Assembly (NCBI RefSeq): GCF_947623445.1
Contig: NC_135241.1
Span: forward strand, 24,678,501 to 24,742,500
Source of the DNA: Clavelina lepadiformis
Taxonomy: Eukaryota > Chordata > Ascidiacea > Aplousobranchia > Clavelinidae
Length of the DNA stretch: 64,000 bases
Reading direction: 5' to 3'
The notes beneath the pieces were generated by a model. It made no database searches, was not told the origin of the DNA, and saw only the letters and a program-made list of their open reading frames with translations. The number at the start of each line of letters is the position of its first letter. Within the stretch, counting starts at the first letter, position 1. A program made the position numbers and the translations under genes. Shown here piece after piece: positions 6,246 through 60,372 of the stretch.

Positions 6246-6365
6246 AAGTCCGAATATGTCGAAGTTTCTGAAATTTATCGAATATCAAAGAGTTGTTGTT
6301 TGTCGTCTTAAAATTAACCTGATGCAGATTTGTTATTCTGCTTGAATTTAAAAATGATTTATAAG

Positions 6366-21120: not shown

Positions 21121-23690
21121 GTTGTTGCTACACACAAAAAAATTCTGCAAGCTCGCCTTAAAGTAACATTCGGAATTGAGGTTGATTTCATAACAATTGT
21201 CTGGTCGGCGAACGTTGCGTCATAATGCGGATCCGCTGCGATTAGCCTGACGTAATAATTTAATGGTCGCTTTGCACCAGTTTGTCCATGGAAATTTCCA
21301 TGACGTCATCGCCAGTAACAAAAAGAGTTTGCCAATCAAAGCAGGAACCTTGGAAGTGAAAAATAAAAATTCAATTTTTGATCAAAAAGTCTAAAATGAG
21401 AAAATTATTTCAAACCTTTTCTTTGTATTTTTCCAATCTCTTTTGTCATTGGTAGATCTTCTTGTGTGACGGCACAAAACCAGTCAAGTTTGATATTTCC
21501 CACATGTTCGTTAAAGTCAATTGAAGACTCAAATTTTAAAATATTTGTGTTCATTCCTGTGTATAGATATTAGGCATTTCAGGATAATATTTCTTGTAAC
21601 GGGAAACCGCACAACTTAAACATAGAAATCTAATATTATCGACTCACCAGCCTCAACCACATCTCCTCCCTTGATTAGAAAATTTAATTTTCTCTTGGGA
21701 ATTTCTACCAAGGTGTAGTCATCGCCCTTTTCAATTACGTTTAATCTTTCGTCAGAAGTGACGTTGACGTTGACCTTTATGACGTACATCCCGGGTAACA
21801 AGTCATCCGCTTTAATCATAAGTTCAGGTTCAACTAAGCTCGTGTTAAGTTGAACTCCATCGCCAGTTTTGGGATGTCTATTTTTGACGTCACTCGATAC
21901 GCTCGCCATTTGTAATCAACGGAGAATAACTCTCTAACGCATCTGAAGTTAAGGTCCACGCTTAAGACCAACTCTTCAACCACTTTCAAAGGTTCGTCGA
22001 GTCCACCGCCAATTTTCCCGTCGCGAATTCTCACGCTCTCCAAGCATGACAACGGTAAAGCTTTCGGGACATATCCAACGAAACGAAACGATTGTTTTTC
22101 GTTTCTGATAAGCACGACCACCTGCCGAGCTTCGTCGAAAAGACTTTCGTTTGTAATTAACATGTAAGGTTCGGCATCAAACGGTAGATTTGGCAAACCC
22201 ACATGTTTATATTCTGTCTTTGAAATCGTCAAAGTTAAGTTCTTTGCTGCCTTTTCATCGATTATTAAATTCATTTCGTACTTTCCCACGTCACCTCTGA
22301 TGAATATAAAAACCTCTCTACGAATTTCGTAATGAAATCCCCGTGACGTAATATATACGTCGTGGATCTGTGGCAACGCTTCAAAAGATGCGGATGATGT
22401 CATTTTAGAAATGTTATTTCTAGCTGTTGCCACAGCTTCGTAAATATCTGCTTGAGGCAAAGTTGCCTCTATCGCCATCATGTGGGCAGAATTTAGAACT
22501 TCTGAAGACCGACAGCTTGGTTCGAGTCGATATGATGTCGATTGCAAGATTTACCGGAGCTCCTGAACTAACTGTCACGTTTATGACGAAAACATTGGGT
22601 CGAAAACCGACGTATTGTTTCGTCATAACTTTAAGATTTTTGATCTTTTCGTAAAATATGACTGGTTTGAAATATGTCACGGAAGAAACATGATTAATTA
22701 TGATGTTAATTGTGCACAATTCGGATAACGTTTAAGAAACGGCCGTTTTTTCTTTGACGTAAGACATTTGTCAGAAGGTGAAAATGAGAGAGGGTTTATA
22801 CGATTGGTATAAATAGCCTATATGTGAAAATAGTGTTAAAAAATAGTGAAGAGCTTATACGCAAAAAGGAATATACACGATAAATAACAAGATCACATCC
22901 TAAAACAGGTTTTCAACGAACTCTTGCTATTGTATTTGACATTTGTATAAAGATTAATAAAATGCGCGCTAAAACTAAGTTTCACTGCGCAAACGTGAGC
23001 GTATCCGCGCAGCTGCGCGCCTCAGAGAGACCACCTTACTCATACTTCTTACACATTTTTACTCACCGATGTGATTGTAAACAAAAGAAATAATTGCTTC
23101 GCTGCATTTTGTTGTGAATCTTTCCATAGTAATCAAAACATTGTTTTGAAAGTAAAAGTTGGGGTAACCAAATGGTTTTTCAGTTATGCAAATATGATTC
23201 ACTTTTCCATCTCTGCTTTGGTTAACTTCAATTTTGCTTTTGCACAACTGTATGAAAAAAAATATAACGAAAATAAATGCAGTAACTTTCCATGGACTCT
23301 TAGCCCATCATCCAAAGCAAAATGACTAAAAATATATTTATAATAATGATATTGACAAATATACACAATGAAAACTTGTACCATGACATCAACAACGCCT
23401 TTTTATGTGCAAACTAATGGAACAATTTTTGGATGAGTCCTCATTCCTCAACCCTCATCTGAACAAAACTTCATCAAACTGCAAATATGCAACTTCTCCT
23501 TTTTTCAATGTAATTTCCCACGACTTGGCACCAGCCGACATGACGTCATTAACACACTCCTTTGCGGTTGGGAACTCAATCGTTCCACTCGCATTTGTTA
23601 AGATTACGCTGCATTCTGTAACGTAAGATATCAATTGTAAAAGTGGTAGAATTAGTAGCGTTGGTTTTCAGGGGAAAGAGATAAACAACT

Positions 23691-24920
23691 ATGTTGGAAA
23701 ATAAAAAAAGTATCATCAGAAGATGGTTTCTAGATTTGTTCTTCCTATTGTTGACGTTTGATTGGTGGCATTGTGATGCAGCGAATGACCAAGCCAGCAG
23801 ATTATTGCATCGAGTTCACAAAGTTAGTGAAAGTTTAAGTCAGGAAAAGGTAAAAAGATGGAACTTACGTAATCTCCAAGATTGCAACTACAAACAACAG
23901 ATGTACGCAAATGCCATAGATAAGGCAGAAACCGCTCAAGGGTTTGAAAACATGGCCAATTTTTTTAAAGGTAACAGAACAAGTTGTTCGTGAGAAAATA
24001 TTTGCGAGGGATTGGAACGAAATTCATATAAATTTGATGTAACGTTAGTCAGTTCCACAGTGACTTTAAGATTTATCACGTTTTTCGTAAAAACATGTTT
24101 TGTATTTTTGTTGATTTCTTGTAAATTTATAGCAGTTTAAAAGAAATAAACATATTATATTAATTGATATATAGCATAGGAAATGTTATTCAAATATTTT
24201 TTCCACAATTTCCCTTCAGAATGCACAAACATCTACGCAAGTGGTTCAACATCAAGCGGTATCTACCCGATATGGCTCAAGGAACGATTCCAGTTCACCT
24301 ACGTCTACTGTGATATGGAGCTCGTTTCAACTAAGAAGAGCTGGACAACAATCCAAAGAAGAATGAACGGAGAGGTCAACTTTAATAGGGGTTGGGACGA
24401 TTACGTCAGAGGGTTCGGGAATCCCCAGGGTGAATATTGGCTCGGGTTGGAAAATATTTATCGATTATCGAGGCTCACTATCTCACCTTCATCAATATTT
24501 CATTTACCAAAACCACCGGAAGTTGGGTTTGATCTTGAAGACTGGGATGGCGTCAAAACATTCGACGAATATAAAATGGTATTGATGGAGCCAAAAGAAT
24601 CTAACTATAAGTTATATGTTGCTGGACGAAATACTTCCAGTTGTTTTAAGACCTCTCCGATTTTTTTCGGCTATTTCAGCACTCCAGATGTTGACAACGA
24701 TAGAGACGACAACAGCAATTGTGCCCAAGAATTCAAGTCAGGTTGGTGGTTTAATACATACTGTGACAGATCAAACCTAAACCAACCATATCCAAAGTAC
24801 AAGCAGGATATGACCTATTACAACATCTTCTGGGAAAGCTGGTATTGTATTAATCCGGATGAAACCGCTTTGCGTTTCGTGTCTATGAATTTTTATCATT
24901 ACTACAACGAAAGAAATTAA
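23691..24920 (+). CDS. v-Themis: v-Themis-like fibrinogen-domain protein, left copy
   Basis: Two exons, 23691-23970 and 24220-24920; 326 residues, phase-1 intron, both splice sites canonical. N-terminus MLENKKSIIRRWF, then a hydrophobic stretch (LFFLLLTFDWWHCDA) that acts as signal peptide or anchor, then a charged helical region likely to form a coiled coil (about 30-93), then a fibrinogen C-terminal domain (about 94-326) with ECTNIYASGSTSSG, GWDDYVRGFG, GEYWLGLENIYRLS, DLEDWDGV and GWWFNTYCDRSNLN. In Ciona, v-Themis is the egg vitelline-coat ligand recognised by sperm s-Themis. This copy is open over its whole length although its partner receptor is a pseudogene, so it may be a free ligand gene. 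Compared with the right copy, it differs most at about residues 205-225. A TTTTCAG site lies 20 nt before the ATG. Confidence 0.85.
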
Positions 24921-25176
24921 CACGACTTTTACTCATGCAAAATTACTAAAATATTCCTGCAGCAATTCCTTGCTTTTCACCGTTTGTCGTATGTATGATG
25001 CGCAACTAAAATCTTCTTAGTTTTTTTGTTCATTTTCAGTAAAAACGTTTCAAGATTCAATTTCATGAAATTAATCAAAACTCTCGACAAACCTGTCTGA
25101 CATTTTGAATCGCGTTCAGCTCGGTAAATACAACTCACGCTCAGCATAAGTCGCTACTTCATATTAAGGTAAATAG

Positions 25177-25350
25177 TTGCGAACAAGTGTCAGAACACAT
25201 AGACCAGAAGATCGACCAAGAACCAGGTTGAATAATTACATCACTGACTTGGCCTGGTCACGACTTGGTATAACTTTAGCCAATTTGGCAGAAGTGGAAG
25301 AAGATCGCGAACTGTTCAAAGAGCCTCGACTTTCTAAAGTTGCTGCCTAC
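25177..25350 (+). mobile_element. Possible LINE C-terminal protein fragment
   Basis: The open frame includes DRPRTRLNNYITDLAWSRLG and a following EEDRELFK. This resembles the GRPRTRW...LAW.RLGI...DR..W tail found at the end of many LINE-encoded polymerases. No polymerase or endonuclease part is nearby. The diverged counterpart in the right arm (about 47020-47110) does not keep the frame. Confidence 0.35.
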
Positions 25351-25434
25351 ACGACTCTCCTACTGCATTTGGAAGTAGTGGGTTTGAACAAAGGAAAGAC
25401 AAAGAGAGAGAGAAATACAGACCAAACATAGTCA

Positions 25435-25540
25435 GTGGTAGCAACATGACGTCATTATTACACTCATTGGCGGTTGGGAACTCAATCGTTCCACTCACAT
25501 TTCTTAAGACTACGCTGCACTCTATAACATACAGGAGCCA
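25435..25540 (-). pseudogene. Extra partial copy of the first CUB-like s-Themis exon
   Basis: On the minus strand, ECSVVLRNVSGTIEFPTANE followed by NNDVM matches the start of the CUB exon at 23615 (ECSVILTNASGTIEFPTAKE). It breaks off after about 90 nt. It lies between the end of v-Themis and the MDGSC exon, with an AG before it as at the true exon. The right arm has no such copy, so this is a left-arm-specific partial duplication. Confidence 0.75.
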
Positions 25541-26329
25541 ATGCAAATAGTGGAGGCACAAGATTTTGAGAAAGCATTTTGACCACTATGCTCTAATATA
25601 AACGAAGTTTCATCAGTTTTCGCGTCTAACATTTGATGACGACCGGGAGAACGACCAAACTATGACGTCTGCATGAGCATTAACTATGTGCAGCTGTGCT
25701 ATACTCAGTCAATAGCTTGTCAACAACCGATAAATATGAGAATTCGCGCTCCGTTGGTATCTATCGCCTGCACGCGCAACACCATCATACGTGGTGTTGG
25801 AAGAACAGCATTGATATGTCGCCCCCGCATTAGGTGATTTCCCTACCCGGATTTCCCTGAACTTCTGCGCCACAGTGACGTTGAACCGCGACGTCAATTT
25901 AACTTTCGTGCAAGATCCATCCATGCTTTTGTTTTATCACCGTAGCACGCGGCCACAACCCAATTAAAAACCGAACCCTCAGCGCAAAGGACAAAACTCT
26001 GGTATAAAAGTGAGGGACAGACAAGCCTACATCAAAGATGCACGACGAAGCAATTAAAGATAAAATACAAACATGTAAAATGCCTAAGGTAGTGACGTAA
26101 GAACGATAAAAATGTTATGTTAAACAGGTGTTGAATAAATCAAAGTGACTAAATATTGTCACAAACTAATTTACGTCACAAGTGGATTTCTTTCACCTTT
26201 TTGTTTTGCATTAGACATTTAAAATGGCGTACATAGGTCAACATATAGGTTTTAAAGAAAGGCACAACGTTGAAATAATCTGTTAAAGCTAAAATATACA
26301 CAGAAACCTACTTTAAAGTACAGACTTTC

Positions 26330-26480
26330 CATATAGTAGTAATGGTAGATATAGTAGTAATGTTAGGTATAAATATAGTGGTAATGTTTACTATACCTAC
26401 TACTGTATCAATAATAACCATCCAATACTACACAGTAGGCTACATACTGTAATTATAGCTTAATATACCAACTATACTTG
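26330..26480 (+). repeat. TAGTA-rich short inverted repeat
   Basis: ATATAGTAGTAATGGTAGAT and its variants, followed by the complementary TACTACTGTATC type. The same block is kept in the right arm at about 45765-45900, so it predates the duplication. Confidence 0.55.
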
Positions 26481-28559
26481 ACATAGGCCAACATAAATTG
26501 TGTATCATTTGCACAGAAGAGAAAAAATAAAATAATGTAACAGTGAAGTGATTCGCTTGTCGCTACATACAGTCAATCTACATCAGTACCATATCGGCCT
26601 TTATACAGCAAAGCTTGCTAAGTCTGCTCAAGGTGTAGGTCGGCCTGTTTGGTTTATTTATAACCTCTTTGCTTTTGAAAAAGTTGGACCAAACCTGGGC
26701 AGAATCACTACTTCAGCTTAAAGCAAACAATCGATAGAACCTGGGACGCAAGTGTGAATGCTTGAGCACCCTTTCAATAGTCTGGATACTTTGTGATTAT
26801 GTTTTGACTTTGACGGCAAAGACTAAGTTTTTAGTAAACTTTCCATGGCCGCCTGACGTAGAAGAATGACAGTAGCTATAACGCTGTCGAATCGGTGAAA
26901 GAAATCAACTCCAATTATGTCGTTGATATTTTGTGTCTATTCTTATCGCCACGATTGCAAAATCGATTGTTTTGCAGTTTGCTGCTGAACGTCCTGGGTA
27001 TTTGGCTGTTCTTGGTATAAAGACATCAGGGTTGGGGCTCTTTGGGGAGGGGGAGGAGGCAGCTACAACCCAAACATGACCCACCGCCGACAGCTTACGT
27101 GTGTATTGTCTATGATTGTCTATAATTGTCCATTCTTATCCCTACGATTGCAAGCAATACCATAGACCTTTGCAAGTCGGTAACAATTGCAACTGCCGAC
27201 CATTATTGTGGCTTGTGAAACCTTCACCTGTAATTTTATACCGCTCCCTGCTCCTGGAAGCCAACTCCATGCAGCGATTTCACAGCGAACAGCTGCAGAA
27301 CCATTACTAGTCAGGCATATTAAGTAAGGTGCATACTACATAGCATAAGTTATCTACGGTAATATATCTAGCTAGTTTTTGAAAATGATATCAGCTTTAA
27401 ATGCATTTTTGTGAAGCGTTGGTTTAGTAAATGCTTAGAACATCTTATGAAGCATATTAAGTAAGGTACATAGCATAGGCTTTCTACGGTAATATATCTA
27501 GCTAACTATTAAAAACCATTTCAACTTCTAATGCATTTTTGTGAAACGTTGGTTTGATAAATACTTGCAAGTGCTTTGCCATGATGAAGCAATAATTGTC
27601 TATTGTGAATAGTGATAAACCTAATTCCAAACTGATACTAATGTCATAATTCCTTCTTTGGTACTAAACAATGTCATTCTCTGAGCTAACAATTGCTGAT
27701 GTATGGTGTCATTTTCCGGCTTTCTCTGTGTGTTGGAGATAGTTATTTCATATAACTTGCAAGCGGTACCGTATCAGTATGTCACTGAACATACTAAATT
27801 CAATTATCTTTCGCATTTTAATGTTACGAACGCGTATAATATTGTTATGTCAAGTTTTGCTGCGAATCATGCAAATATTTGAGCCCCAAAGAAAATGACT
27901 TGACAGGCGATAAGTGGCCGGCGAACCAGCAGCTGGACGACACTACTATGGTTAACAAAGTCACATTTTCTTATTTCATAACACAAGCTGATATCTACAA
28001 AGCATACCTGCGCATCCAACCATGAATGTAACAGCCAAACCAACTTGTAAAAACCTCATGATCCACATTTTCAATTCCTGATATTTTGTTTCTGGTTGAG
28101 CCTACCGGTATTTAAATATAACAATTTAACTCTAATCTCGAGTTACGTGACGTATACAACATAATAGCAATATACTGACAAAATATTACGTGGTGTTTGT
28201 ATGATGTCACGTTAGAGTAACCAAATATTTCTTCACCAAAATTGCCGCTAAATTTTCAATCAAAATCATCAAAATTGACCAAACTTACCTCAAGTGATCC
28301 GAAAAAAGTTTTATGTGATGCAACCATACATATAATATAAACAAGTATATACCACGTCTATCGATGCGATGCAAATAATCTAAACACAAAGATTTCTTTA
28401 AATACTGTATTTAGTTGTATATAGTATCATGTTGATAAATGGTATTCTTGTGAAGTAAAGATTTATCAAGTCTTATATGGGCAAGTGGCGATTGCAGCCA
28501 TAGCAAGGTAGCTATGTGCGAGCGGGCTACATAATATTGAGCGTTGGTGTCGAGCCCTA

Positions 28560-43015: not shown

Positions 43016-44383
43016 CACCCGCTCGCACGTAGCTACCTTGCTGTGTCTGCAATCGCCACTTGCTCATATAAGACTTGATAGATTTCCACCTCACAAGAAT
43101 ACCATTCATCAACATGATGCTATGTACAACTAAATACAGTATTTATTTATTTTAGATATAAATATAAATTTAGGTATAAATCAGGAAACACTGCCATATT
43201 TATATCTAGCGCAACACAACTGGTTATTATTTGGTGGTGACAATTATAAAATTTACTAAAACTGGCATTTGTTGCACAAAAAAGAAAATGCAGATGACCT
43301 ATATTCAGTATAATGCAATAGACATCATATCAACCAAGTTGTGACAACGAAGCTCTTTAATATGGTCGTCGTGCTTTATGCATCGTTGTCATGACGCACT
43401 CCTCTAATCGCGACGTGGCGAGATCTAACTCATGAGTGTAGAATTCCATCTGTTACAATGTAACAACGTTACAATGTAACAACGACGTAATCATGCTGTT
43501 ACAACAAACGAACTATGAAATCTTCAGTAACTGTAGCGAAGCAGTGTGGTTGATGTATATAGCCTACTCCTAGTAATGTTATTGTAGTTGTAGTTCATTG
43601 ATAAATACATAATCCTATGTTGTGTGTTAAAATTTTGAGATGAGTTCATATTCGAATGGAAACTTGAAACTTAAAAGAACTATTTAATCTCTTACGTACT
43701 ATGGTACAGGGTTTACAAGGGCAAGGCATGAACGACACTTGCTTATGTTCTGTGGACATAGCGGATAGCTTTAAATTCGTGCAATGCTATGAAAATATCA
43801 TAAAAACCACACTAACCACAGGAACTGCATTTATTGGTGCAACTGGTGTGCAGAAGTATTACCAATAACCCATTTATTTTTGAAGAAATTAGATAACTGT
43901 TGAACAAAAATCAAAATCTTGAGACAAGCCAAGAAAATGACATAAATCTTTGTAACCTACCGGACTGGTGTGATGAAATAACATGAGTTATTCAACAATT
44001 AATGACTATAGACTTGTCCCTGTCGGCCCACACAAGTATATTCGGTAATAATCGCTTTGTTCCATAATTATGTTGTAATAAAACTACTATCTTGACGTCA
44101 CAACCGATTATACAATCCTTTTGTCAAACCCTAAATATGGCCTTAAAGTAATGAGGTAAAACATTTTGCAGATTCAATTTACAGACTTTACAGCTGTGTT
44201 GAAAATTTATCGGCAATTTTGCTGAAGAAATATTTGGTCACTCTAACGTGACATCATACAATCACCAGGTAATATTTTGTCAGTATATTGCTTATATGTT
44301 GTATACGTCGCATAACTCGAGATTAGAGTTAAAATGTTATATTTAAATACCGGTAGGCTCAACCAGAAACGAAATATCAGAAA

Positions 44384-44450
44384 ATGAAAATGTGGTTCAT
44401 GAAGTTTTTACAAGTTGGCTTGGCTGTTACATTCATGGTTGGATGCGCAG
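44384..44450 (+). CDS. s-Themis: Signal-peptide exon of s-Themis
   Basis: MKMWFMKFLQVGLAVTFMVG, then CA, followed by a GTATGC donor (phase 1). A TATTTAAATA motif lies about 45 bp upstream. The left arm has the same exon at 28068-28008 with the first ATG changed and the second kept. Hydrophobic core and position at the 5' side of the receptor gene argue that it supplies the signal peptide. The phase does not fit the next visible exon (46309), so at least one small exon remains unplaced. Confidence 0.65.
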
Positions 44451-47400
44451 GTATGCTTTGTAGATATCAGCTTGTGTTATGAAATAAGAAAATGCGACTT
44501 TGTTAACCATAGTAGCGTCTTCCAACTGCTGGCTCGCTGGCCACTTATCGCCTGCAAAGCCATTTTCTTTGAGCCACAAATATTTTCATATTTCGCAGCA
44601 AAACTTGACATAACAATATATACGCGTTCATAACAATAAAGTGCAAAATATAACTGATTTTAAGATGTTCATTGACATATTGATACGGTACCGCTGGCAA
44701 GGTATATGAAATAATTATTTCCAACACACAGATAAAGCCGGAAATTGACACCATACATCAACGATTGTTAGCTCAGACAAAGACATAGTTTACTAACGAT
44801 CAAGAGATTGTGACATTACTATCAGTTTTGAATTAGGTTTATCACTAGTCACAATAGACAATTATTACTTCATATTAACAAAGCATTTGTAAGCATTTAC
44901 TAAACCAACGCTTCACAAAAATGCATTTAAAGCTGATATCATTTTCAAAAACTAGCTAGATATATTACCGTAGATAGCCTATGCTATGTACCTTACTTAA
45001 TATGCCTGACTAGTAATGGTTCTGCAGCTGTTCGCTGTGAAATCGCTGCATGGAGTTGGCTTCCAGGAGCAGGGAGCGGTTTAAAATTATAGGTGCTGGT
45101 TTCACAAGCCACAATAATGGTCGACAGTAGCAGTTGTTACCGCCTTGCAAAGCTCGATGATATTGTTTGCAATCGTAGTGATAAAAATAGACAATTATAG
45201 ACAATACACACGTAAGCTGCCGACGGGGGGTCATGTCTGGGTTGTAGCTGCCTCCTCCCCCTCCCTAAAGAGCCCCAACCCTGATAAGAATAGACACAAA
45301 ATATCAACGACATAATTAGAGTTGATTTCTTTCACCGATTCGACAGCGTTATAGCTACTGTCATTCTTCTACGTCAGGCGGCCATGGAAAGTTTACTAAA
45401 AACTTAGCCTTTGCCGTCAAAGTCAAAACATAATCACAAAGTATCCAGACTACAGCAAGGGTGCTCCAGCATTCACACTTGCGTCCCAGGTTCTATCGAT
45501 TGTTTGCTTTAAGCTGAAGTAGTGATTCTGCCCAGATTTGGTCCAACTTTTTCAAAAGCAAAGAGGTTATAAATAAAACCAAACAGGCCGACTTACACCT
45601 TGAGCAGACTTAGCAAGCTTTGCTGTATAAAGGTCGATATGGAACTGATGTAGATTGACTGTTTGTAGCGACAAGCGAAGCACTTCACTGTTACATTATT
45701 TTATTTTTTATCTTCTGTGCAAATGATACATAATTTAGGTCGGCCTATGTCAAGTATAGTTACTATATTAAGCTACTATTACAGTATGTACTGTGTAGTA
45801 TTGGATGTTTATTATTGATACAGTAGTTGGTATAGTAAACATTACCACTATATTTATACCTAACATTACTACTATATCTACCATTACTACTATATGGAAA
45901 GTCTGTACTTTAAAGTAGGTTTCTGTGTATATTTTAGCTTTAACAGATTATTCCAACGTTGTGCCTTTCTCTAAAACTTATCTGTTGACCTATGTACGCC
46001 ATTTTAAATGTCTAATGCAAAACAAAAAGGTGAAAGAATTCCACTGGTGACTTAAATTAGTTGGTGACAATATTTGGTCACTTTGTTTTATTCAACACCT
46101 GTTTAACATATGACATTTTTATCGTTCTTACGTCACTAGGCCTACCTTAGGCATTTTATATGTTTGTGCTTTATCTTTAATTGCTTCGTCGCGCATCTTT
46201 GATGTAGGCTTGTTTGTCCTTCACTTTTATACCAGAGCTTTGTCGTTTGCGCTGAGGGTTCGGTTTTTAATTGGGTTGTGCTCGCGTGCTGCGGTGATAA
46301 AATAAAAGTATGGATGGATCTTGCTTGAAAGTTGAGTTAGTGCCGCGGTTCAACGTCACTGTGGCGCAGAATTTGACTGAAATTAGGGAAAGTTCAATTC
46401 GCGTTACACTTGTAAACGCATTTGACAAGGTAACCAACATCCTAAAGAGATCAAGTGATAAGATTGCTTAAAAAACTTCTACATTTGCAAGGCATTCTAA
46501 AATGACGTAGATTGCGTCAGTTTCTTTCTATTGTTAGAGAATTAATTTGCTGTAATTAGCAACCACTACATGCACCATATTTTACAACAACTTAACCATA
46601 GTTTTTAAGTGTATGATTTAAGATATTTTATGCATTTTCTACATTGTACTAGCTTTTTTATATTGTCAACGTTATAAACTATTCGGCGGTTGAATGACAC
46701 AAATAGTTTGAATGACAGCATAGTTTGATTGGCAGGCAGGCAGCAGAAGTATAATTTTGAGAAAAATATCCGGGTACAAAAGTGGTTGCTTGTTTCTGGA
46801 GTTTATTTCAAAAAACGTGTCATGGGGAAATCCCCTAATGCGGTGTCGACATATCAAAGCAGTTCTTGTCAACACCACATAAGATGGTGTTGTGCGTGCC
46901 GGTGATAGATACAAGCGGAGCGTGAATTCTCATATTTATCAGTTGTTGATGAGCTATTGACTGCAGCATATTTCTCTCTTTCTTCAAAACCCACTTCTTC
47001 CATACAGAGGGGTTGTGGAGGCAGCAGCTCTAAGAAGATGGAATCTCACTAAATTGTTCGCGAGCTTTTACCGCTTCCGCTTCTGTATTTACCTTAACAT
47101 GAAGTTGCGACTTATGCTGAGTGTGAGTTGTATTTGCCGAGCTGAACGCGATTCAAAATTTCAGACAGGTTTAATGAGAGTCTTTATTATTTTCCTGAAA
47201 CTGAGTCTTGCAAAGCTTTTACACAACGTAAGACGTGAGCGAAAAATGCTGAATATTTCAGTTTTTGTTGTACAAGTTGCAAAGCTGCAATATATGAGCG
47301 ACGGTGAAAAAGACGGAATTGCTGCAAAAATATTTTAGTAATTTGCAAGAGCGAAAGTCCTGTTAATTTATTTCGTTGTGGTGATGATACAAATGCATAG

Positions 47401-50400
47401 ACACAAAACGCAAAGCGGTATCTGTCCCACTAAAACAAAGCCAGCCTTCCCAGAACATGTTGTAATAAGTCATGTCTTGCTTGTATCTTGGATATGGTTG
47501 GTTTAGGTTTGAACCTTCGCACCGTCTGCTGGAATACCACCAACCTGACTTGAATTCTTGGGCACAATGACGGTTGTCGTCTTTATTGTTGTCAACGTCT
47601 GGAGTGCTGAAATAGCCGAAATAAATTGGAGGCCATTTGAAACAATCGGAAGCATTAAAAGGTCGGGCAATAGTTAAACGATAGTTAAATTCTTTTGGAC
47701 TGAACCGAATTATGTCATAATCAACAAATGCTTTGACACCGTCCCAGTCTTCAAGATCAAACCCAACTTCCGGTGCTTTTGGTAAATGAAATATTGATGA
47801 AGGCGAGATAGTCTGCCTCGACAAACGATAAATATTTTCCAATCCGAGCCAATATTCACCCCGGAAATTTCCGAACCCTATGACGTAATCGTCCCAACCC
47901 CTGTTAAAGTTGACCTCCCCGTTAATTCTTCTTTGTATTGTTGTCCAGCCCTTCTTAGTTGAAACGAGCTCCATATCACAGTAGACGTAGGTGAACTGGA
48001 ATCTTTCCTTGAGCCATATCGGGTAGGTACCACTTGATGTTGAACCGCTTGCGTAGATGCTCGTGCATTCTGAAGGGAAACAGTAACAGAAAAGTAATAC
48101 AGAAATATAGTTATATACATTTTTTTTAAATGCTGTCAACTTTACTACAAAAGATGTGATAAATCTTGAAGTCACTATGTAACTGAAAGCGTAACATAAA
48201 TTCATATGAATGTCGTTCCAACTCTTCACAACGTAATTGAAATCTGCTCTTTCACCTTTTAAGAAACCGACTAATTTTTCAATGTTTTGAGCGTTTTCTG
48301 CGCTATCGATGGAGTTAGCGTGCATCTGTTGTTGGTAGTGGAAATTTTGGAGATTACGTAAGTTCCAGCGTGTTAGATTTCCCTGACTTAAACTTTCCTT
48401 AACTTTGTGAACTCGATGCAATAATCTACTAAGTTTGTCAGTGACTGCATCACAATGCCACCAATCAAACGCCAACAATAGAAAAAGCAAATGTAGAAAC
48501 CATCTTCTGATGAAACTTCGTTTATAATCCAACATAGTCGATTATCATTTTTGCTGAAAATCAACGCTACTAATTCTACCACTTTTCACAATTGATATCT
48601 TAATGTTACAGAATGCAGCCTAATCTTAACAAATGCGAGTGGAAAGATTGAGTTCCCAACCGCAAAGCAGTGTGGTGTAAATGACGTCATGTCGGCTGGT
48701 GCCAAGTCGTGGGAAATTCAACTGAAAAAGGGAGAAGCTGCATATTTGCAATTTGATGAAGTTTTGTTCAGGTGAGAGCGATTACTCGTCTAAAAATGAC
48801 TCATCATTGTTCCGTTAGTCGGCAGACAAAAAGGCGTCGGTAATATCATAGAACAAGTTTTTGTAGTGTTTAGGCAATATCGATATTTTATTAAGATCCT
48901 TAAAATAAATGTATTTCTAGTCATTTTGCTTTGGTTGATGCGCTAAAAGTTCATATAAAGTTACTGCATTTACTTTCGTGACATTTTTTCATGCAGTTGT
49001 ACAAAAGCAGAATTGAATCTAATCCAAAAAAATGATATCCCGAGTCTTATTTGCAAAAATCAAAAACCATCTGGTTATCCCAACTTTGTGTTTCAAAACA
49101 ATGTTACCATTAATATGGAAAGATTCACAAAGAAATGCAGCGAGGCAAATATTTCTTTTGCCTACACCCGCATTGGTGAGTAAGAATGTGTAAGAAGTAT
49201 GAGTAAGGCTCTCACGTTCACGTTTACGCAGCAAGTCCCGAGTACCCACTGCTTTACGCTTAAACCCGACTTACCAATTCACGTTCTGATTCATACGACG
49301 AGTCTTACCAACGTAGGTAAATCTACGCGCCATTTATCGACCAGAGTAGCTGAACACACAGTTAAACAAAAAGTAGTTTAAGTCTTAAACCTTTAAAACT
49401 TAAATCGGCCAGGAAAGACTCAGTGCAATTGCTACAAACCCAGCAACATAACCATTAATTATTTTCAAATAGTTAAAACGTGCAAAACTGATTACGAGAG
49501 TAAAATCAGCGAAGCTATATCAATCAAACAGAATAACCAAATTAAACATCTCAATAAACAAGAGTTTGAAAATGATACATCGTTTTTACTAAAATTTTTA
49601 CATGACCCCATTAACTTAGTAACTGTTACTCAAATGGTTTAATTCATTGCATTGTAGCGCTGATACCTCTTGTGCTTCCTCTTGTCTTAGTAACATGTGC
49701 ACCAAATTGTTTTTTTGCTTTGCGTGACAATTATTGTCGCCCAGTATTCAGTTTTGAAGCCCATCGTTACTCTGAAACGAAGCTAACTGTTTTTCACCAT
49801 CGCTTCGTGTTACATAGCAATTCAGTTCTTTCATTTTACTCTGATAAGGGATTGAAGTTAGTCCGAAACAAGTTAGACAGTTTGTTACAAAGATGCCTAT
49901 TTTTGCACACGTTGTGCTTATTGCAATAATTTGATATTTACTTATCATTTTTGCAAATATCATTTTTGTCGCTTTAAATTGCGTAAGCAGGAAATTTGCA
50001 TAGACAAATAAATTTTTGTATCTGTCAATAATTTGTTGTTTGAATAAGCAAAACTATACACAATTTGCAGGTTACCTGAAGTGTTATAGCACAAGTTGTG
50101 TCATAAATACTGTAAGGTGACAGCCATTAACAAGATTAATGTTTGATACGTCTCGTATATGTTTTACTTTGCTTTTAATGACGCGAACATTTGTCACAGT
50201 TGCAAGTGTTTATGTTATTATTTATCCCATTATTCTCGCATTAGAATAGAAAATTGCACACCTGGCTCAGAAGTAAAATCGGTTTGTAGCTTAATGTAAC
50301 TCTATAGCTACGAGTTTTCTGCTCGAGCTCAGAAATTTTTACATTTTGTTACAAAAATCTGCTCACCTTGAATGTATCTTAGAAGGGACACTGTCTGCAG

Positions 50401-53400
50401 AATGCAGTGATGCATCAGCTGTACTGATATTGTAGAAAAGTGATTTACGTTTTAAATGTACTTTAAGGTTTCCGATTAATGACCGCCAGCACACACGTTC
50501 AAACCGGACAGAAAGTCCAGTTCGTTGCTACACTGACCGGAGCAAGCAAGTTCAACCTCCACTGTGAGATTTCGTACAATAGTTTCAAAACTGGATTTTC
50601 AACTAAAACTCTCACAGCTGAGCGGTCATTCGAGTATGCGGGAGAGTATTTGGTTTTTGCAAAATGCTTTATCGGTAGAATTGGCAGTATACGCTATTTT
50701 ACAACTCCAGACCTGTTTCTTTACGTGCAAGACTTTTTATCGGCATCAAAGTTACAAGTATCTCTCCAACAAAACGACTTCCAAACATATCCAGCCTCAA
50801 CTGAACTCATCTTCCACCACAAATATTACTTTCCCATCTCCTACGCTCTCATGTTGGATGACGTCATCATAACCGAGCTTCAGACGTCACAAACGTTTGA
50901 TAAAAAGAAAATTTTATCGAACGAAACGGTCAAGTTCGAACTGAACTCAACCATGCAACGATTGGTTGGACCGGGAAAACATGACGTCATATTATTGTTG
51001 CAAAATCATGTTTCATCCGTGACGTATTCTAAACCAGTCATATTCTACGAAGAGATTAAAAATCTTACAGTTATGACGGAACAATACGTCGGTCTTCGAC
51101 CCAATGTTTTCGTCATAAGCGTGACAGTTAGTTCAGGAGCTCCGGTAAATCTTGCAATCGACATCATATCGACTCGAACCAGACTGTCGGTCTTCAGAAG
51201 TACTAAAGTCTGCCCACGTGATTGCCACACGATGGCGATAGAGGCAACGTTGCCTCAAGCAGATATTTACGATGCTGTCGCAACAGCTACAAATAATATC
51301 TCTGAATTGACGTCATCGGCATCTTTTGAAGCGCTGCCACAGATCCACGACGTATATATTACGTCACGGGGATTTGAATACCAAACCCGTAGAGAGGTAT
51401 TTATATTCATCAGAGGTGACGTGAGAAAATGCGACATGAATTTAACAATCGGCGAAAATGCAGCCAAGAATTTGACTTTGACGATTTCAAAAACGAAATA
51501 TAAACATGTGGGTTTGCCAAATCTACCGTTTGACGCCGAACCTTACATGTTAATTACAAACGAAAGTCTTTTCGACGAAGCTCGGCAGGTCGTCGTGCTT
51601 ATCAGAAACGAAAAACAATCGTTTCGTTTCGTTGGATATGTCCCGAAAGCTTTACCGTTGTCATGCTTGGAGAGCGTGAGAATTCGCGACGGGAAAGTTG
51701 GCGGTGGACTCGACGAACCTTTGAAAGTGGTTGAAGAGTTGGTCTTAAGCGTGGACCTTAACTTCAGATGCGTTCGAGAGTTATTCTCCGTTGATTACAA
51801 ATGGCGAGCGTACCGAGTGACGTCAAAAATAGACATCCCAAAAATAGTCGATGGAGTTCAACTTAACACGAGCTCAGGTGCACCAGAACTTGTGATAAAA
51901 GCCGATGACTTGTTACCTGGGATGTACGTCATAAAGGTCAACGTTAACGTCACCTCTGACGAAAGATTAAATGTAATAGAAAAGGGCGATGACTACACCT
52001 TGGTAGAAATTCCCAAGAGAAAATTAAATTTTCTAATCAAGGGAGGAGATGTGGTCGAGGCTGGTGAGTCGATAATATTAGATTTCTATGTTTAAGTTGT
52101 GCGGTTTCCCGTCACAAGAAATATTATCCTGAAATGCCTAATCTTTATACATAGGAATGAACACAAATATTTTAAAATTTGAGTCTTCAATCGACTTTAA
52201 CAAACACGAGGAAAATATCTAACTTGACTGGTTTTGTGCCGTCGCACAAGAAGATCTACCAATGACAAAAGAGATTGGAAAAATACAAAGAAAAGGTTTG
52301 AAAAGATTTTCTCATTTTAGATTTTTTTGATCAAAAATTGAATTTTTATTTTTCACTTCCAAGGTTCCTGCTTTGGTTGGCAAACTCTTTATATTACTGG
52401 CGATGACGTCATGGAAATTTCCATGGACAAACTGGTGCGAAGCGACCATTATTACGTCAGGCTAATCGTATCGGGTCCACATTATGACGAAACGTTCGCC
52501 GACCAGATAATTGTTATGAAGTCAACCTCAATCCCGAATGTTACTTTAAGGCGAGTTTGCAGAAATTTTTTCTTCCTACTTCCATGAGCTTAAAATTTAT
52601 ATTCTTTAACCTAGAAATTCTTTTAATCAAGTTCCATTTAAATTTAACGTTTTTCTTTGAACTTCAGGTGCAGGTCAAATTGCGAGAAATTGTTTTCTCC
52701 ACACAAGCCAATGATTCTTCAATTAGATTGTGACGATTGTACACGTCACAGTTGGGTATTGTCAGTGAAATCTGGACAACAATTAAGTTTGTGCCAGAAC
52801 CGACGATTCTGTAAACTTAATAATTCACTACTCAACATAATTAGCACGTCATCAAACGTCACAGGAATAGGTGAATCCCCATTATATAAGTTTGTTGTCA
52901 TCAATAAATTAAAAGTAGACCATCATGAAATTGAACTTTGAACTTGACATCCAGGATACAATGTTGACGGTGACATGGCATCGGCAACCCTAATCCTTAA
53001 CCCGTTATCACCACCTAGCGGAGGTAGTTGCAGGGTTTCACCCAGATGTGGAATCGCTTTTGTCACAAAATTTAACGTCTCCTGTTCTGGCTACGCACAA
53101 GGCCAAGCCTCTTTGAAGTTCAAGTTCTCTGTCAAGGAAAAAGGTAAATCCTCATGTTGTAGCAAGTACAGAAATGCTAAGATTAAAATTATGTCGTAGT
53201 TATTAACTCACGGTAGACTAAACCTAAACTCAGGTAAATTAGGATGTGAATATTTTTGCTAATAACTTAACTTTCCACGGGCTCTAAAACCTGGCAATCG
53301 ACAACAAGAAACTTTGTGAAATGAAAATATATTTTGAGACATTTTTGTACAAGACATATTTTTTAAATTTTTATCAATAAAGTTTATAAGATTAAATATG

Positions 53401-56400
53401 AAATATCAAACGGCTTACAACTTTGATTTTAATAAAACAACGCTAATTTACGATTTAAAATACTTTAAATCAAATAACGCACGTGGTGTGTAAGACTACG
53501 ATGAGGAAATATTTCTCTAGTTTATTAATTTGCGCTTTTTTGTGCTTAAGCAAAAATGGCGATTTGCTTTCCCCTTAGTAACCTCAATACTTAATAATAC
53601 GATTATTTAATAATAATTTTTAATGTTTACTCTTAAGAAGACAACTGTCTGTGGCTACATCAGGTTGGCAAAACTTTTAACAAACATGACTCTTGCACTT
53701 ACAACACGACATGCGGTGTTTGTAGAAGGGAAGTTATGAATAGATTAAAATCTAATATAGAAATATTTTCAGACCACGATAATCTTCTGCAAAGTAGTTG
53801 CGATCCGAACCTCTATGACCTCACATTGTCGTCAGAGGACTTAGTTTCTGACGTCACGATTTCGATCGCAATATGCGGCCTTCGTCAGTCGTGCACTGAG
53901 AAAACCTTGACCGTGACTTTGAGGAAAACTTCCGACGTCAACAAACACCTGACAAGTGACGTATTTTACGCGATTTCGAGCCACAATCTGCAGAGGACGG
54001 CGCAGGTTATACCGCCATTGTCTTCAGCAAAGATTCTCAAACCGTTTCTGGTAGGTTTATGACGTCATAGTATCTATTTATGGATGGACCACTTCAAGTG
54101 CCTTCATTGTTCTTTCGTTTAACAGATAACGAAGATATTAGATCGAACCGCGGATTATCCGCTAAATACTCTGACTTCGGCCAAGCAAGTAGCTGATGTA
54201 CTACGCCACCTTACGGAAAGTTTTGGCGTTGCAAATGAGCATCACGTGGTAAGAGCAGAAGTATAAAAGTTAATGTGGTAGATTTAAAAACTAAACACAG
54301 CTAACTTGTTTGTTTTTTATAATTTCAGTACCAATTGGTGAGAACTTTGAACCGATTAGAGCGCATCGTTCATAAACACTCTAGCGAGGGCGATGATGAT
54401 GTCATAAGGTCAATTGCGGCTTCATGCGTTGTCGTTACGTCACATTTGATGGAATTTTCCGACGAAATTCGTTTCAAGGTAACAACTTGTATAATAATAC
54501 TGACGTAACACTTCAATTCTTCAATGACAATTATTGCAAAGATCAAAGAAAATTCGCGAATGACCCGGCTGGGCAAGCTGCTTATGACGTCATTGGTACC
54601 AGGAGAAGATACGATGACGTTTGAAACAAAATCCGTTCAAGGACGATTCCTTAAGTTAAACATTGACGTCATCAGTAAGTTTTATTGAGCAGGAATGTCG
54701 AACTCGCCATCCACTTTGAGCTCAAGTGCGACACCCGACGAGTTTTGTTTCATGATCTTTTCTGAAATCGTTGGCTGCGTTCAATTTTATTACTCTACAG
54801 TCTACATGGGCTTTATGCTTTTGCGTTCAAACTCTGACTCTGTGGCTTAAAAAAAGAATTTTAAACGCAGTTGCTAACACAATTATTGACCAGACCCGTT
54901 TCTGACAAGCGCTAAGCTGTAAGACGATGCCTAGAAAAGTTATTTTTTTAACGAAAATAAATTACAGTAAGAAACTAGAAGGTTGATTTTTGTCTTTTGT
55001 CGTGACGTTGAAAGCCCGACAACGACGATAATCATCATTTAGTTAATTTTTATCGTTTTTATGTTTTGCCATATTTAATCTTCAAACAATACACAACTAA
55101 TTATATTTCGCAAGTTTTTGGTGTAGGATAAATTTTGTGGAATCGGCTTCGCAATGTTTAAGCAATTTCGCTTCATTATTTGTCGTTTATTTTCCTCAGT
55201 AGGCCGCGTTTTGCAACGATTTTAACTCTTTGACGTTAATTAGTGGCTTAATTCGAGCGAAACGTAGAATAACGAAAAAAAACTTTTTAGATCCACTCAA
55301 TGACTCTTCACTTCGACTTCCAAATATACACGCACTGAGCAATGAAGTCATCAATGTCGAGGCATAATATATTTAATTTGCTTTATTTTGCGCGATTTAA
55401 CGTGATAATGAGACGATTTTATGATTTCCAGGTTTTCACCTACGATTCGTCCATCAACTTTAACACGAGGACCCACAAAGTCGATCAAGTCACGTCCGTC
55501 TCCATGACAACGGGATGGCAAAACGAGATCCCGGTCAATCGCAACGAGGCCAAAAATCAAACAATTGGCTTCCCCTTGCCAGCACAGCCTGGTAAAGGAA
55601 ACATAACAATGAGGGTTGAGAGTGAATGCGACGTGGCTGGTTGTCACAGCAAAGCCGCAGGTTGGGCTTTGTTTGATTGGATGCTCTACAAACGAGATGG
55701 AAACGACCTCTTTCTTACAATTCATGTCGAAAACATGGATCAGAAAATTGAAAATTGTACAATGAGCCTGGAAACTACCGACCAAAGCTCTTTCAAAATA
55801 AAGAAAGAGTTTCACGAAAAGGGTTTGTTTACAGAAAATAAGAGTCTCGGTTTTTATGTTTCTAAAGATCAGCACTTTTCTAATTATTTTTTTGCACTTT
55901 TGCAACTTTTTGTCGCGTTTATTCTCAGAGTCTTTGTACACCTGGTCGATTTCCGAAAATTCACTTCCGCACAGACAAGTCGAACTGAACGTCACAGTGT
56001 ATGTTGATCTCGGTGCGGGTTATTACCGCATTGGAAGTTTGATCAACGTGACATTTACGTCATTTATACTGAACTGCTTGCATTGGGAAGATCGAATGCG
56101 CGACTGGGGCGAGGGCTCTTGCAAGGTCATATATTTGATGTCGATGTTTGTATCATAAAACATTTTTGAAGCAGAGTTTAAACTAATTCTTAATCTAACT
56201 TTTATTTTTTTAATCATTCCAAGCATTATGAGCAAAGTAATGTTATTATCATCAGGTCCATCAAAACGCTGGGACAGTTAATTGTGAATGTGACGTAGAC
56301 CAGGTCACAGCAAACAGGTTTAAGAGGAGCGGAGAGGAGTCAATTCCTCAGATTATCTACGCTTCCCATCTTCTTGTGTTTCCCAACAAGATCAATTATG

Positions 56401-57837
56401 ACCAAGTAAAGATGTTTATGACATAGTAGACGTTTTTAGTTCTTATTGTCAATTATTGAATCGTTTTTAGCTTTCCTGGAATCTTTGGGAGCAATTCCAA
56501 CAAAATCCAGTGATCATCATCGTTTTATCTGCTCTTTACGTCATCTACGCTCTTCTCCTTATATGGGCGAGAAATAAAGATCAAAATGAGGAGAAAAAAG
56601 TACAAAGTTATCAAACTATTGTCAAATTCATGAAATGATTTATCAAATTTTAATATTAAAAATTTTGAAGGGACTCTTCATTGAAGTTGCGGACAACTCA
56701 CCAAACGACCAATACCGGTATTACGTCACAATTTATACCGGTAGTCGTCCAAACGCCGGTACCACCGCGGCTGTCAGCATGAGACTACTGGGCAAAAGAC
56801 AAAGAAGCAATGCTCACGTCATACAAGTACAATGATGACGTCTGCCATGATGTATGATAGTTGGTTCCGACGTCATAATGATTGATTGTTTGTTTAGCGA
56901 GAAAACGACAACGTGCTATCTGTGGGTAGCGTGCAATCGTTCCTTATTACCACACCACGTAGCTTGGGCGACATCAAAGCAGTCAGGATGTGGCGCAATG
57001 ACGGAGGGAGCAATCCTGAGTGGTATGAATTAGTGACAAGTTAACTGCAGTTGTATGAATTAGAGTTGAAAACGGTCCTTGTATTTTTAACTCAAAAAGT
57101 TAAATGAATCTCAAACTAGGCCATAAACTTAAGTTTATTAAATCAAAAAATTCATCTTTTAATGCTAATCTTAGACTGTTCATTTTTAAGTTGTGTTCTG
57201 CAGGAGGATTTTGGCACTTTACGCGCAAGTAAATTCGTGTAATGAAAGTGCCTGTATAGTGTGTAGTGAAAGCTTGGCCCGACTTAAAACTCTTGCATGA
57301 ATTAGTTATTTATTGCAAGTTATACGTCAGGTATCTGGAACGTATGATTGTACGAGATTTGGAAACAAACGAGTGTTGGTTCTTTCTGTGCGGTACCAGG
57401 TTCACCGACGTCCTGGAATATACATTCCGGGCCTCCACGTTAGAGGAACTACAAATATCTAATAAATTGTTCCTCTTAAAATGTGAAAACCACTTTAAAG
57501 ACAGGTATGTTGCTCATTGATTTCACCTCGCTGTGCTAGATTGTCATCTCGTAATCTTCTCATTTTCAGACACGTCTGGTATTCCTTATACGGTATGAGG
57601 CCTTGGCAGCAATACGTCATGACGAGGGTGGAAAGAGTGGCAACTTGCTTTCTCTTCATATTCATGGTCATGTTAACATCTATGATGTTTCATGGCCACA
57701 GTTATGCGGTAGTGATGGCTGGTGGCCGTACAGTTCCTTCGAGCCCTTGCTCACAATTTAGAAATAAACGTGGCTTGATTTTTATTGCAAGACTTTTGGT
57801 TGTTTCAAAGTCCCTTTTGGTTTCAATCTTTTTCTAG
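44384..57837 (+). CDS. s-Themis: s-Themis-like polycystin-1-family receptor
   Basis: Exons with agreeing phases from 48612: 48612-48771, 48997-49175, 50468-52063, 52364-52550, 52668-52870, 52955-53143, 53773-54050, 54126-54248, 54329-54478, 54542-54674, 55291-55361, 55432-55822, 55929-56125, 56256-56405, 56471-56599, 56671-56826, 56898-57022, 57331-57504, 57570-57837. Upstream: 44384-44450 and 46309-46429. Order: signal peptide; CUB-like region (CSLILTNASGKIEFPT ... SGYPNFVFQNNVTI); long REJ region (GGSCRVSPRCGIAF, CSGYAQGQASLKFKF); GPS (CLHWEDRMRDWGEGSCKV ... NCECD); helix 1 (IIIVLSALYVIYALLLIWA); PLAT (YYVTIYTGSRPNAGTTA ... SFLITTPRSLGDIKAVRMW); helix 2 (CFLFIFMVMLTSMMF) and a last hydrophobic stretch. 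In Ciona, s-Themis is the sperm self/non-self receptor. Polycystin-1 usually has 11 helices; here the frame ends early, with no channel part seen. Confidence 0.82.
47363..48535 (-). CDS. v-Themis: v-Themis-like fibrinogen-domain protein, right copy
   Basis: Two exons, 48535-48256 and 48069-47363; 328 residues. It lies antisense in a 5' intron of s-Themis, the published arrangement of s/v-Themis pairs. N-terminus MLDYKRSFIRRWF with hydrophobic LLFLLLAFDWWHCDA, a charged helical segment, then a fibrinogen C-terminal domain (ECTSIYASGSTSSG, GWTTIQRRINGEVNF, GEYWLGLENIYRLS, DLEDWDGV, GWWYSSRRCEGSNLN). Role by homology: vitelline-coat ligand. The segment after DLEDWDGVKAF (DYDIIRFSPKEFNYRLTIAR, then PFNASDCFKW) is strongly different from the left copy while its flanks are nearly constant. 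The ATG is 76 nt from the first CUB exon of s-Themis, so its promoter and leader must overlap that receptor exon on the other strand. Confidence 0.88.
   Translation of the reverse strand: MLDYKRSFIRRWFLHLLFLLLAFDWWHCDAVTDKLSRLLHRVHKVKESLSQGNLTRWNLRNLQNFHYQQQMHANSIDSAENAQNIEKLVGFLKGERADFNYVVKSWNDIHMNLCYAFSYIVTSRFITSFVVKLTAFKKNVYNYISVLLFCYCFPSECTSIYASGSTSSGTYPIWLKERFQFTYVYCDMELVSTKKGWTTIQRRINGEVNFNRGWDDYVIGFGNFRGEYWLGLENIYRLSRQTISPSSIFHLPKAPEVGFDLEDWDGVKAFVDYDIIRFSPKEFNYRLTIARPFNASDCFKWPPIYFGYFSTPDVDNNKDDNRHCAQEFKSGWWYSSRRCEGSNLNQPYPRYKQDMTYYNMFWEGWLCFSGTDTALRFVSMHLYHHHNEIN
49255..49645 (+). mobile_element. Penelope-like element 3' fragment
   Basis: In an s-Themis intron. One frame reads NVGKSTRHLSTRVAEH, close to the GIY-YIG endonuclease pattern of Penelope-like elements (iGkT.RhL..R..EH). 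A neighbouring frame reads CYKPSNI and then KISEAISIKQNNQIKHLNKQ, the usual C-terminal tail. Only this end is present, so it is an old fragment. The left arm has no clear counterpart in the matching intron. Confidence 0.6.
50468..52063 (+). other. s-Themis: Long REJ-region exon of s-Themis
   Basis: 532 codons in one exon, phase 1 to phase 1, donor GCTG|GTGAGT. It encodes the immunoglobulin/FN3-like N-terminal part of the REJ module. The homologous left-arm exon keeps only the part from about 50998 on. From about 51050 to the end the two copies are far more alike than in the CUB exons, which suggests recent conversion or constraint. Confidence 0.75.
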
Positions 57838-59712: not shown

Positions 59713-60360
59713 TAATAACGACATAACAACAGTGACTGTACGACCGAATTAGACCATTTGAAGCTAACCTTGAAGTTTAATTCAACCACGGACAGCTTCA
59801 CAAAAACGACCACAGTTGTATGGTTTCATTTTTCTGCAGACACACAGCCAAAATTAGGTTTGATTTACATGCGACTTCAGATTACACAGTTTCTTTATTT
59901 AACTGAACACACCTTGTTAAGTGGCTCTTTCTAATCAAAAAGTAATTCAATTGTGAAGCTCCCTGCTTGTTGATTCAGCTACAATTGGTACCACAAACAC
60001 TGACACATGACTGAAAAAACCTTTGAGATGTGAGTTGGCAGTATCTAGACAGCATTAAGCAAGGGCCATCTCTGCTTTATGGTCGTTCAATAGCTCGAGC
60101 AATTACAGCACTTTTTCGAATGGAACATATATGTTTCCATTAAATTCATTCATCCATCGTTATATGTTCATATAAGAATATATATATATACATGACATAT
60201 TTCATATATAACATATATACATCCATTCATTCATCCATTCCATTGTTATATGTTCACATAACATATGATATATTTGTTTGAAAAAGAAAGTTGTTTATGA
60301 GGTTAACTATATAGTATATATTCATTTTTTAGCTCCACCGAAGACATCCGATATATTAAT
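59713..60360. other. Intergenic with AT and CATT repeats
   Basis: No gene seen. 60160-60260 holds AT-rich TATATGTTCA/ATATACAT repeats and CATTCATTCATCCATT units, twice. Confidence 0.5.
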
Positions 60361-60372
60361 GATGATTCTTAC

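Follow-up and report, generated by a model that had tools for sequence, protein, structure and literature searches.

The closest described system is the s/v-Themis genes of Ciona, for which the available excerpts of PMC7018956 and PMC9265791 describe a fibrinogen-like v gene lying antisense in intron 1 of a receptor gene. The excerpt of PMC7018956 gives the Ciona B and B2 pairs as near-identical outside the N-terminal variable region and mentions truncated copies in Ciona as well. At least four alleles of homologous pairs are given for Halocynthia roretzi in the excerpt of PMC9265791, and s/v-Themis homologues are mentioned for H. roretzi and Ciona savignyi in that of PMC8849226; the excerpted parts of these reviews give no copy number for either species comparable to that of Clavelina. 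Clavelina, the light-bulb sea squirt, is a colonial animal that broods its embryos (PMC10884593).

We analysed a 64-kb stretch of the Clavelina lepadiformis genome (the window) and detected at 44384-57837 (W2) a PKDREJ/polycystin-like receptor gene with an antisense two-exon fibrinogen-like gene in its intron 1. The features shared with Ciona are a receptor with REJ and PLAT/LH2 domains and a variable N-terminus, and a v gene antisense in intron 1. This anatomy had been proposed by a sequence-only reading and was confirmed in part; the assignment to the s/v-Themis family was supported, with nested antisense genes as in the excerpted Ciona descriptions and Ciona homologues as the closest named relatives outside Clavelina. 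The same reading had taken the window for a Ciona locus; the genome analysed is that of Clavelina lepadiformis. The locus probably belongs to an s/v-Themis-type family that has expanded in this species and that by analogy with Ciona would be used as a self-recognition lock.

Results

The window carries two broken nested pairs, W2 and an inverted copy, W1, each with an open v gene and neither with an intact receptor (Table 1).

Table 1. Positions of the receptor and v gene features in the 64-kb window
Feature	Position	Strand	Remarks
W2 receptor exon 1	44384..44450	+	start codon; signal-peptide-like stretch by eye; counterpart in inverted copy 28074-28009
W2 receptor intron 1	44451..48611	+	GT...AG borders; holds antisense v gene
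W2 v gene	47363..48535	-	exon 1 48535-48256, intron 48255-48070, fibrinogen exon 48069-47363; spliced 328 aa
W2 receptor exons 2-3	48612..49175	+	CUB-like, within variable block; model/matches from paralogue P0039, not W2
W2 receptor exon 4	50468..52063	+	532 aa; first part variable block, remainder better conserved among paralogues
W2 receptor exon 5	52155..52295	+	47 codons; in-frame TAA at 52220-52222
W2 later receptor exons	52364..56405	+	rest of REJ domain and pre-membrane region; two GC donors, after 52550 and 55361
W2 receptor exon with first membrane span	56471..56599	+	hydrophobic segment by eye
W2 PLAT/LH2 domain exons	56671-56826, 56898-57022, 57331-57504	+	
W2 receptor exon with second membrane span	57570..57710	+	span by eye
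W2 tail of open frame	57711..57837	+	unconserved
W1 receptor relic (inverted copy 1)	21136..28259	-	frame shifts between pieces; 564/2160 residues touched
W1 receptor exon 1	28074-28009	-	
W1 receptor exon 2	23616-23461	-	further exon-2-like piece 25522-25439
W1 receptor exon 3	about 23252-23065	-	
W1 receptor exon 4 pieces	22704-21646	-	
W1 receptor exon 5 and following	from 21557	-	last piece ending 21144
W1 v gene	23691..24920	+	exon 1 23691-23970, fibrinogen exon 24220-24920; open
Inverted-repeat arm	44199..52571	.	partner of 21136-28259

The W2 receptor is a broken copy, interrupted by an in-frame stop and truncated. It has REJ, PLAT/LH2 and membrane spans (the spans, like the label "late receptor exon" used below, are our own reading), and the exons beyond the second span are missing: homology to the nearest pair compared, 94.6% over 7.4 kb, breaks off sharply at 57710, and the later receptor exons, found in 10/10 copies first compared, had no match in the 64-kb window (best E 0.072). 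A search for an intact W2 frame with all membrane exons thus ended at the TAA at 52220-52222 and the break at 57710, and the working receptor/ligand pair that had been claimed for the window was not upheld. A GPS site before the first membrane span was not listed for W2 in profile matches at E<=1; GPS scores below the curated cut-off in the P0046, Styela and Ciona P0058 receptors.

It is unlikely that the W2 receptor is still useful as a decoy or dominant-negative protein ending after the second span, with exon 5 skipped. With 141 nt and phase 1 at both ends, exon 5 is frame-neutral, and all remaining exons in the model are open and joined in frame over 1650 aa, which would allow such a product; however, exon 5 has AG and GT borders (by eye), is present in 11 of 12 other receptor copies examined (L029 has none) and is open in all 11, the window has no match to the later receptor exons, and the sister copy W1 is a plain relic.

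The arms of the inverted repeat are 79% identical across the block of the v gene and exons 2-3 and 89-93% identical on both flanks. Since the W1 and W2 v genes are open and the receptors are not intact, the v genes would be at most egg-side ligands without a matching sperm partner, comparable to the reported "nonallorecognition" allele of Ciona.

The genome search detected at least 29 single-exon copies of v that are 59-100% identical, the next match falling to 32%, and the upstream v exon 1 was placed by script in 26 of them, with some borders uncertain. A late receptor exon lies antisense, 4.7-14.3 kb off, at 27 of the 29 v genes and on the same strand at none; the two v genes without one are those of the window. 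Together with one split v gene, this gives 28 pair positions on five chromosomes, a pair position being a v exon that faces a late receptor exon and not a count of complete receptors. Completeness was looked at in 11 of the 28, and 10 receptors are near complete, while C9:12988366 is without most of the receptor. Five more late receptor exons lack a v partner (C3:22499310, C3:22482288, C4:20500406, C4:20498746, C2:24651056). The family counts are lower bounds, because the genome searches score best candidates only.

The clean family formed by the 29 v copies, and the antisense position of 27 of them to one receptor type, with none on the receptor's strand, make it scarcely credible that they are ordinary ficolin/FREP-like immune lectins located in introns by chance, even though the fibrinogen domain by itself is common (170 exon matches in the C. 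lepadiformis genome), and v has its top solved-structure matches in angiopoietins, tenascin-R, FIBCD1 and ficolins. The search with v gave no match to a Ciona v-Themis sequence.

It is also very improbable that the assembly has inflated the copy number by leaving the haplotypes of a few loci uncollapsed. High heterozygosity is expected for such a locus type, and the fibrinogen exons of C9:12919141 and C9:12988366 are without any difference; against this, the copies stand in order along five chromosome-scale contigs, with distances of 17 kb to 2.3 Mb between neighbours, v pairs are mostly less than 80% identical (34/406 pairs above), and the assembly has BUSCO duplicates of 0.6%, QV 67.4 and 9 haplotypic duplications removed (PMC10884593). 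An apparent second assembly likewise gives 18 v representatives.

For the kinship of the receptors, the paralogue P0035 (chromosome 2) was compared with named homologues. It is 38-41% identical to Ciona s-Themis-A-type proteins, 46% to a channel-bearing Ciona homologue and 28% to vertebrate PKDREJ over the PLAT-TM region. The closest named non-Clavelina relatives among the matches listed are this channel-bearing homologue and the Ciona "self-incompatibility-linked polycystic kidney disease protein-1A", which by our own reading is s-Themis-A. Vertebrate PKDREJ shares the REJ, PLAT and polycystin layout (Pfam) and lies outside the tunicate clade, but was itself set as the outgroup; the Clavelina receptors are nearer Ciona s-Themis than PKDREJ, both by identity and in the tree rooted on the vertebrate rows. 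The Styela clava protein LOC120332856 (P0049) is 27% identical over 87% of the receptor model with an alignable N-terminus and has REJ, PLAT, polycystin and channel domains, a likeness at the level of the protein, apart from genomic context.

A PF08016 scan gave no match near any pair, and the resulting view that all copies are channel-less was rejected, since the family's own channel exon matched all nine chromosome-5 pairs. The other 19 pairs were without match, and the channel exon matches listed are those at the nine pairs and, in addition, a distant polycystin. At the six loci examined on chromosome 5, the channel exons are open, the single TAG triplets within matches falling in introns that were read through.

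The trees took in paralogues of W2, not W2 itself. A group of Ciona A and the Clavelina receptors without a channel was rejected with the whole alignment (AU p 2e-6; 20 proteins, long branches flagged) and in quick trees of 14 proteins for four regions (AU p 0.0039, 1.4e-6, 1.2e-4 and 0.044). Assignment of W2 to A, B or B2 could not be made accordingly: W2 has no channel, like A, yet its paralogues do not group with Ciona s-Themis-A, so that it was rejected as an s-Themis-A orthologue, and it was rejected as an s-Themis-B orthologue because it ends after the second span, without the C-terminal PKD channel. The tree rejects shared ancestry of the channel/channel-less split with that of Ciona, and the two splits seem to have separate origins (AU p 2e-6, 4e-5).

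We detected that ligand and receptor N-terminus diverge jointly, independently of the more uniform receptor body. On chromosome 5 (six loci, 15 pairs), identity is 61-90% for v, 49-83% for receptor residues 1-300 and 90-94% for residues 451-1200. Divergence of v follows that of the receptor N-terminus (r=0.955; 4 of 720 permutations), a value from six loci only that is driven by two close pairs, and not that of the receptor body (r=-0.16, same loci). DNA identity in the v-domain kilobase is 72-78% in 13/15 pairs, compared with 91-97% in kilobases 7-9 of the same loci; the receptor body is not uniform all through, and some kilobases go down to 74-83%. This resembles the Ciona B/B2 pattern.

In the second assembly, whose v entries possibly belong to a cryptic clade, 10/18 v representatives are less than 87% identical to every one of the 29 reference v copies; shared alleles are hidden here because the protein set was clustered at 90%. 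Receptor N-termini matched poorly between the assemblies, but the matches are understated because the comparison was with 13 reference cluster representatives only, several standing for many members, and this result is kept out of the main evidence.

Diversifying selection on v was considered and is not demonstrated, because overall dN/dS does not reach 1 (0.15-0.75 in pairs more than 80% identical); values of 1.1-1.3 in v columns 100-180 were found for only four listed pairs. The windowed receptor dN/dS took in introns, the repetitive linker and the P0064 tail (in another frame than its relatives), and its usable part is the contrast of residues 1-300 with 451-1200.

Discussion

In the intact copies, a secreted fibrinogen-like ligand is nested on the opposite strand to a receptor with a CUB-like N-terminus, REJ, PLAT and membrane spans, and through this nesting the receptor N-terminus and the ligand are inherited as one cassette. 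By analogy with Ciona, a haploid sperm with receptor X that meets an egg coat with ligand X of the same cassette would bind it as self, take up calcium and then detach. About 28 such cassettes could act in Clavelina, compared with three in Ciona. From the same analogy, we infer gonad expression, receptor-ligand binding and self-sterility in Clavelina; the literature searched gave nothing on its self-fertility.

The family could have another task in Clavelina, colony/zooid allorecognition or gamete species recognition, with self-sterility lost or never present, and we regard this as rather doubtful. The colonial and brooding habit (PMC10884593) and the seemingly large number of 28 loci for a pure self-sterility lock are in its favour, and Clavelinidae are given as unstudied for fusion or allorecognition in the excerpt of PMC7344649. 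On the other hand, the closest named non-Clavelina homologues include the Ciona self-incompatibility receptor, and a mating lock would require just such a nested, linked and variable layout.

Compared with Ciona and its three pairs, Clavelina has about 28 pair positions, channel and channel-less classes seemingly of separate origin, and the life of a colonial brooder. For the self-recognition lock, we tentatively suggest, as a possible model, that ligand and receptor tip of the about 28 cassettes move together when exchanged between loci, the receptor body being kept uniform by conversion, so that each locus would be a slot in a shared specificity pool. The channel and channel-less classes would have arisen independently in Ciona and Clavelina, and v genes without a receptor, like the two of the window, would form the end of the pool that is retired or serves the egg only.

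About 28 pair positions would make a simple self-recognition lock a many-part one. If the two receptor classes did evolve twice, the lock would need two subunit kinds, for recognition and for calcium entry. Ciona self-sterility is explained by three gene pairs, and the 28 of Clavelina make open questions testable: whether rejection takes all matches or few, how new specificities originate, and why receptors with and without a channel exist side by side. The cassette pattern provides a concrete model of how matched pairs may multiply with the match kept, which is a standing puzzle also for plant self-incompatibility loci.

Genome-wide distribution and kinship of the v/receptor pairs

The window lies at C2:24678501-24742500 of the Clavelina lepadiformis assembly (209,060,895 bases, 95 contigs). 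Using its v-Themis-like (v) domain as query against this assembly, we detected 29 copies contained in a single exon (59-100% identity) and a further copy that is split; the family boundary is sharp, identity falling to 32% past these. A late exon of the s-Themis-like receptor matched 33 genome places and was found antisense, 4.7-14.3 kb away, at 27/29 v copies, the other two both lying in the window; none of the 29 has it on its own strand at up to 20 kb. With the split copy this gives 28 pair positions on chromosomes 2 (5), 3 (5), 4 (1), 5 (9) and 9 (8), every one within the final 18% of its contig as oriented (0.82-0.97 of the contig, window included). Counted against the RefSeq relative used, ten of the 11 receptors checked among these positions keep 97-100% of residues and are stop-free, and the eleventh, at C9:12988366, has 780/2127.

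The sequence-only reading had taken the locus for one of the Ciona s/v-Themis loci; the Clavelina chromosome-2 receptor paralogue P0035 supports kinship to that family. With its PLAT-TM region as query, the top named non-Clavelina protein was a channel-bearing Ciona homologue (46%), the Ciona 'self-incompatibility-linked polycystic kidney disease protein-1A' and related Ciona entries matched at 38-41%, and vertebrate PKDREJ ranked after them (28%). In the available text of the cited papers, Ciona has three published s/v-Themis pairs (PMC7018956), Halocynthia roretzi at least four alleles of such pairs (PMC9265791), and C. savignyi is also said to have homologues (PMC8849226). The available part of a review describes Clavelinidae as unstudied for fusion or allorecognition (PMC7344649), and we found no Clavelina study of s-/v-Themis or self-incompatibility-linked genes in the open-access literature.

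The family channel exon was matched at 9/9 chromosome-5 pairs, the only other match being one distant polycystin (25%), and the channel exons are open in the six of these nine loci that were examined, so Clavelina, like Ciona, has both channel and channel-less receptors. In a 20-protein tree, in which the program flagged long branches including the Ciona channel protein, 11/11 Clavelina receptors formed one clade (support 100/99.7), and grouping with Ciona was rejected for the channel-less classes (AU p 2e-6) and the channel classes (AU p 3.8e-5). Quick trees of four regions (14 proteins) rejected the channel-less grouping in 4/4 (p 0.0039, 1.4e-6, 1.2e-4, 0.044) and the channel grouping in 3/4 (p 0.066, 4e-4, 0.002, 0.041); the pre-membrane region did not recover the Clavelina clade, yet did not reject it (p 0.379). 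Because the trees reject the cross-species groupings, the split appears to have two separate origins, provided that conversion has not blurred an older kinship.

Divergence of the v gene and receptor N-terminus

Among six chromosome-5 copies, the kilobase holding the v domain shows 72-78% DNA identity in 13/15 pairs and the adjoining sequence is poorly alignable in most pairs; kilobases 7-9 are 91-97% identical, and further on identity is mostly >90%, with some kilobases at 74-83%. Synonymous divergence is ~0.6 for the first 300 receptor residues and 0.55 for the v domain, against 0.09-0.23 in residues 451-1200 (the receptor body). The v distance follows the receptor N-terminus distance (r=0.955, 4/720 permutations, resting on six loci and two close pairs), and over these loci the body is uncorrelated with the v domain (r=-0.16) or the N-terminus (r=-0.05). 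The inverted repeat of the window has the same pattern (v block 79%, flanks 89-93%). Two chromosome-3 copies compared are 89-98% alike along their full extent, with no variable block between them. The cassette pattern resembles Ciona B and B2, near-identical save for the N-terminal variable region according to the available text of PMC7018956.

The protein set looks to include a second Clavelina assembly ('unnamed protein product' entries, on contigs that differ in length from the reference ones). Best matches of its 18 v representatives to the 29 reference copies were at >=99% for three, 90-93% for five and <87% for ten, counts from which 90% clustering drops shared alleles. Its receptors, compared with 13 reference representatives only, match at 97-99% in the PLAT-TM part in 8/10 having it (93 and 66% in the other two) and at 60, 67, 72, 78, 90 and 97% in the variable part (n=6), which may match unseen sequences better. 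The v protein P0029 (91%) and receptor P0060 (87-90%) both point to C5:23784746, one linked case.

Broken receptors beside the two v genes of the window

Coordinates of features in the window (no prefix) and on other chromosome contigs (C2, C3, C4, C9)
Feature	Position	Strand	Observation
Receptor copy W2	44384-57837	+	antisense v gene in intron 1
W2 receptor exon	52155-52295	+	beyond the first gene model, shown by RefSeq relatives
In-frame TAA	52220-52222	+	inside this exon
W2 homology to nearest fetched pair, C2:24610476	50316-57710		94.6% identity, then homology stops
Inverted copy W1	21136-28259	-	v gene of two exons, open; receptor remnant 564/2160 residues
Second exon-2-like (CUB-like) piece in W1	25522-25439		opposite side of the v gene
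Repeated unit, both orientations	1058-2069; related 4188-6310, 13384-14681, 17749-19137, 31509-33628, 38991-40920
215-aa frame in one repeat copy	1567-2214	-	short stretch resembling collagen (Pfam Collagen, E 7.7e-5, under the cut-off)
Cysteine-rich stretch	60300-60530	-	EGF-type exon lookalike, read by eye
Locus L029	C9:12985531-13005530		receptor without about residues 67-1400 of relative; fibrinogen exon with zero differences from C9:12919141
Late receptor exons without nearby v gene (n=5)	C3:22482288, C3:22499310, C4:20498746, C4:20500406, C2:24651056	-, -, +, +, +

The sequence-only reading had proposed a receptor/ligand pair at W2; its v gene is present, and its receptor is broken. The exon interrupted by TAA is open in 11/11 other examined copies having it (L029 is without the exon), and a scan in 50-residue steps over 13 loci gave this stop as the single in-frame one with good flanks. 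The downstream receptor exons, present in 10/10 first-fetched loci, have no match anywhere in the 64-kb window.

Neither of the two v genes in the window has an intact receptor, a state likened here to the Ciona nonallorecognition allele discussed in the available text of PMC12562240. Both v domains look to be under constraint, judging by pairwise dN/dS of 0.36-0.50 in the five listed pairs including them. The second exon-2-like piece in W1 may represent a receptor tip, either an alternative one or a remnant; the nearest fetched pair, L031, likewise matches exon-2-like sequence at two places. The v-like protein P0008 (2004-base contig, source ena) starts like the chromosome-9 copy L029 and continues like W1 (95%), readable as a chimera or as exchange.

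The linkage, layout, number of positions, kinship and cassette divergence of the pairs are shown in Clavelina. By analogy with Ciona, the receptor would be displayed on haploid sperm and the v protein located on the egg coat, and a match between them may lead to calcium influx and then sperm detachment.
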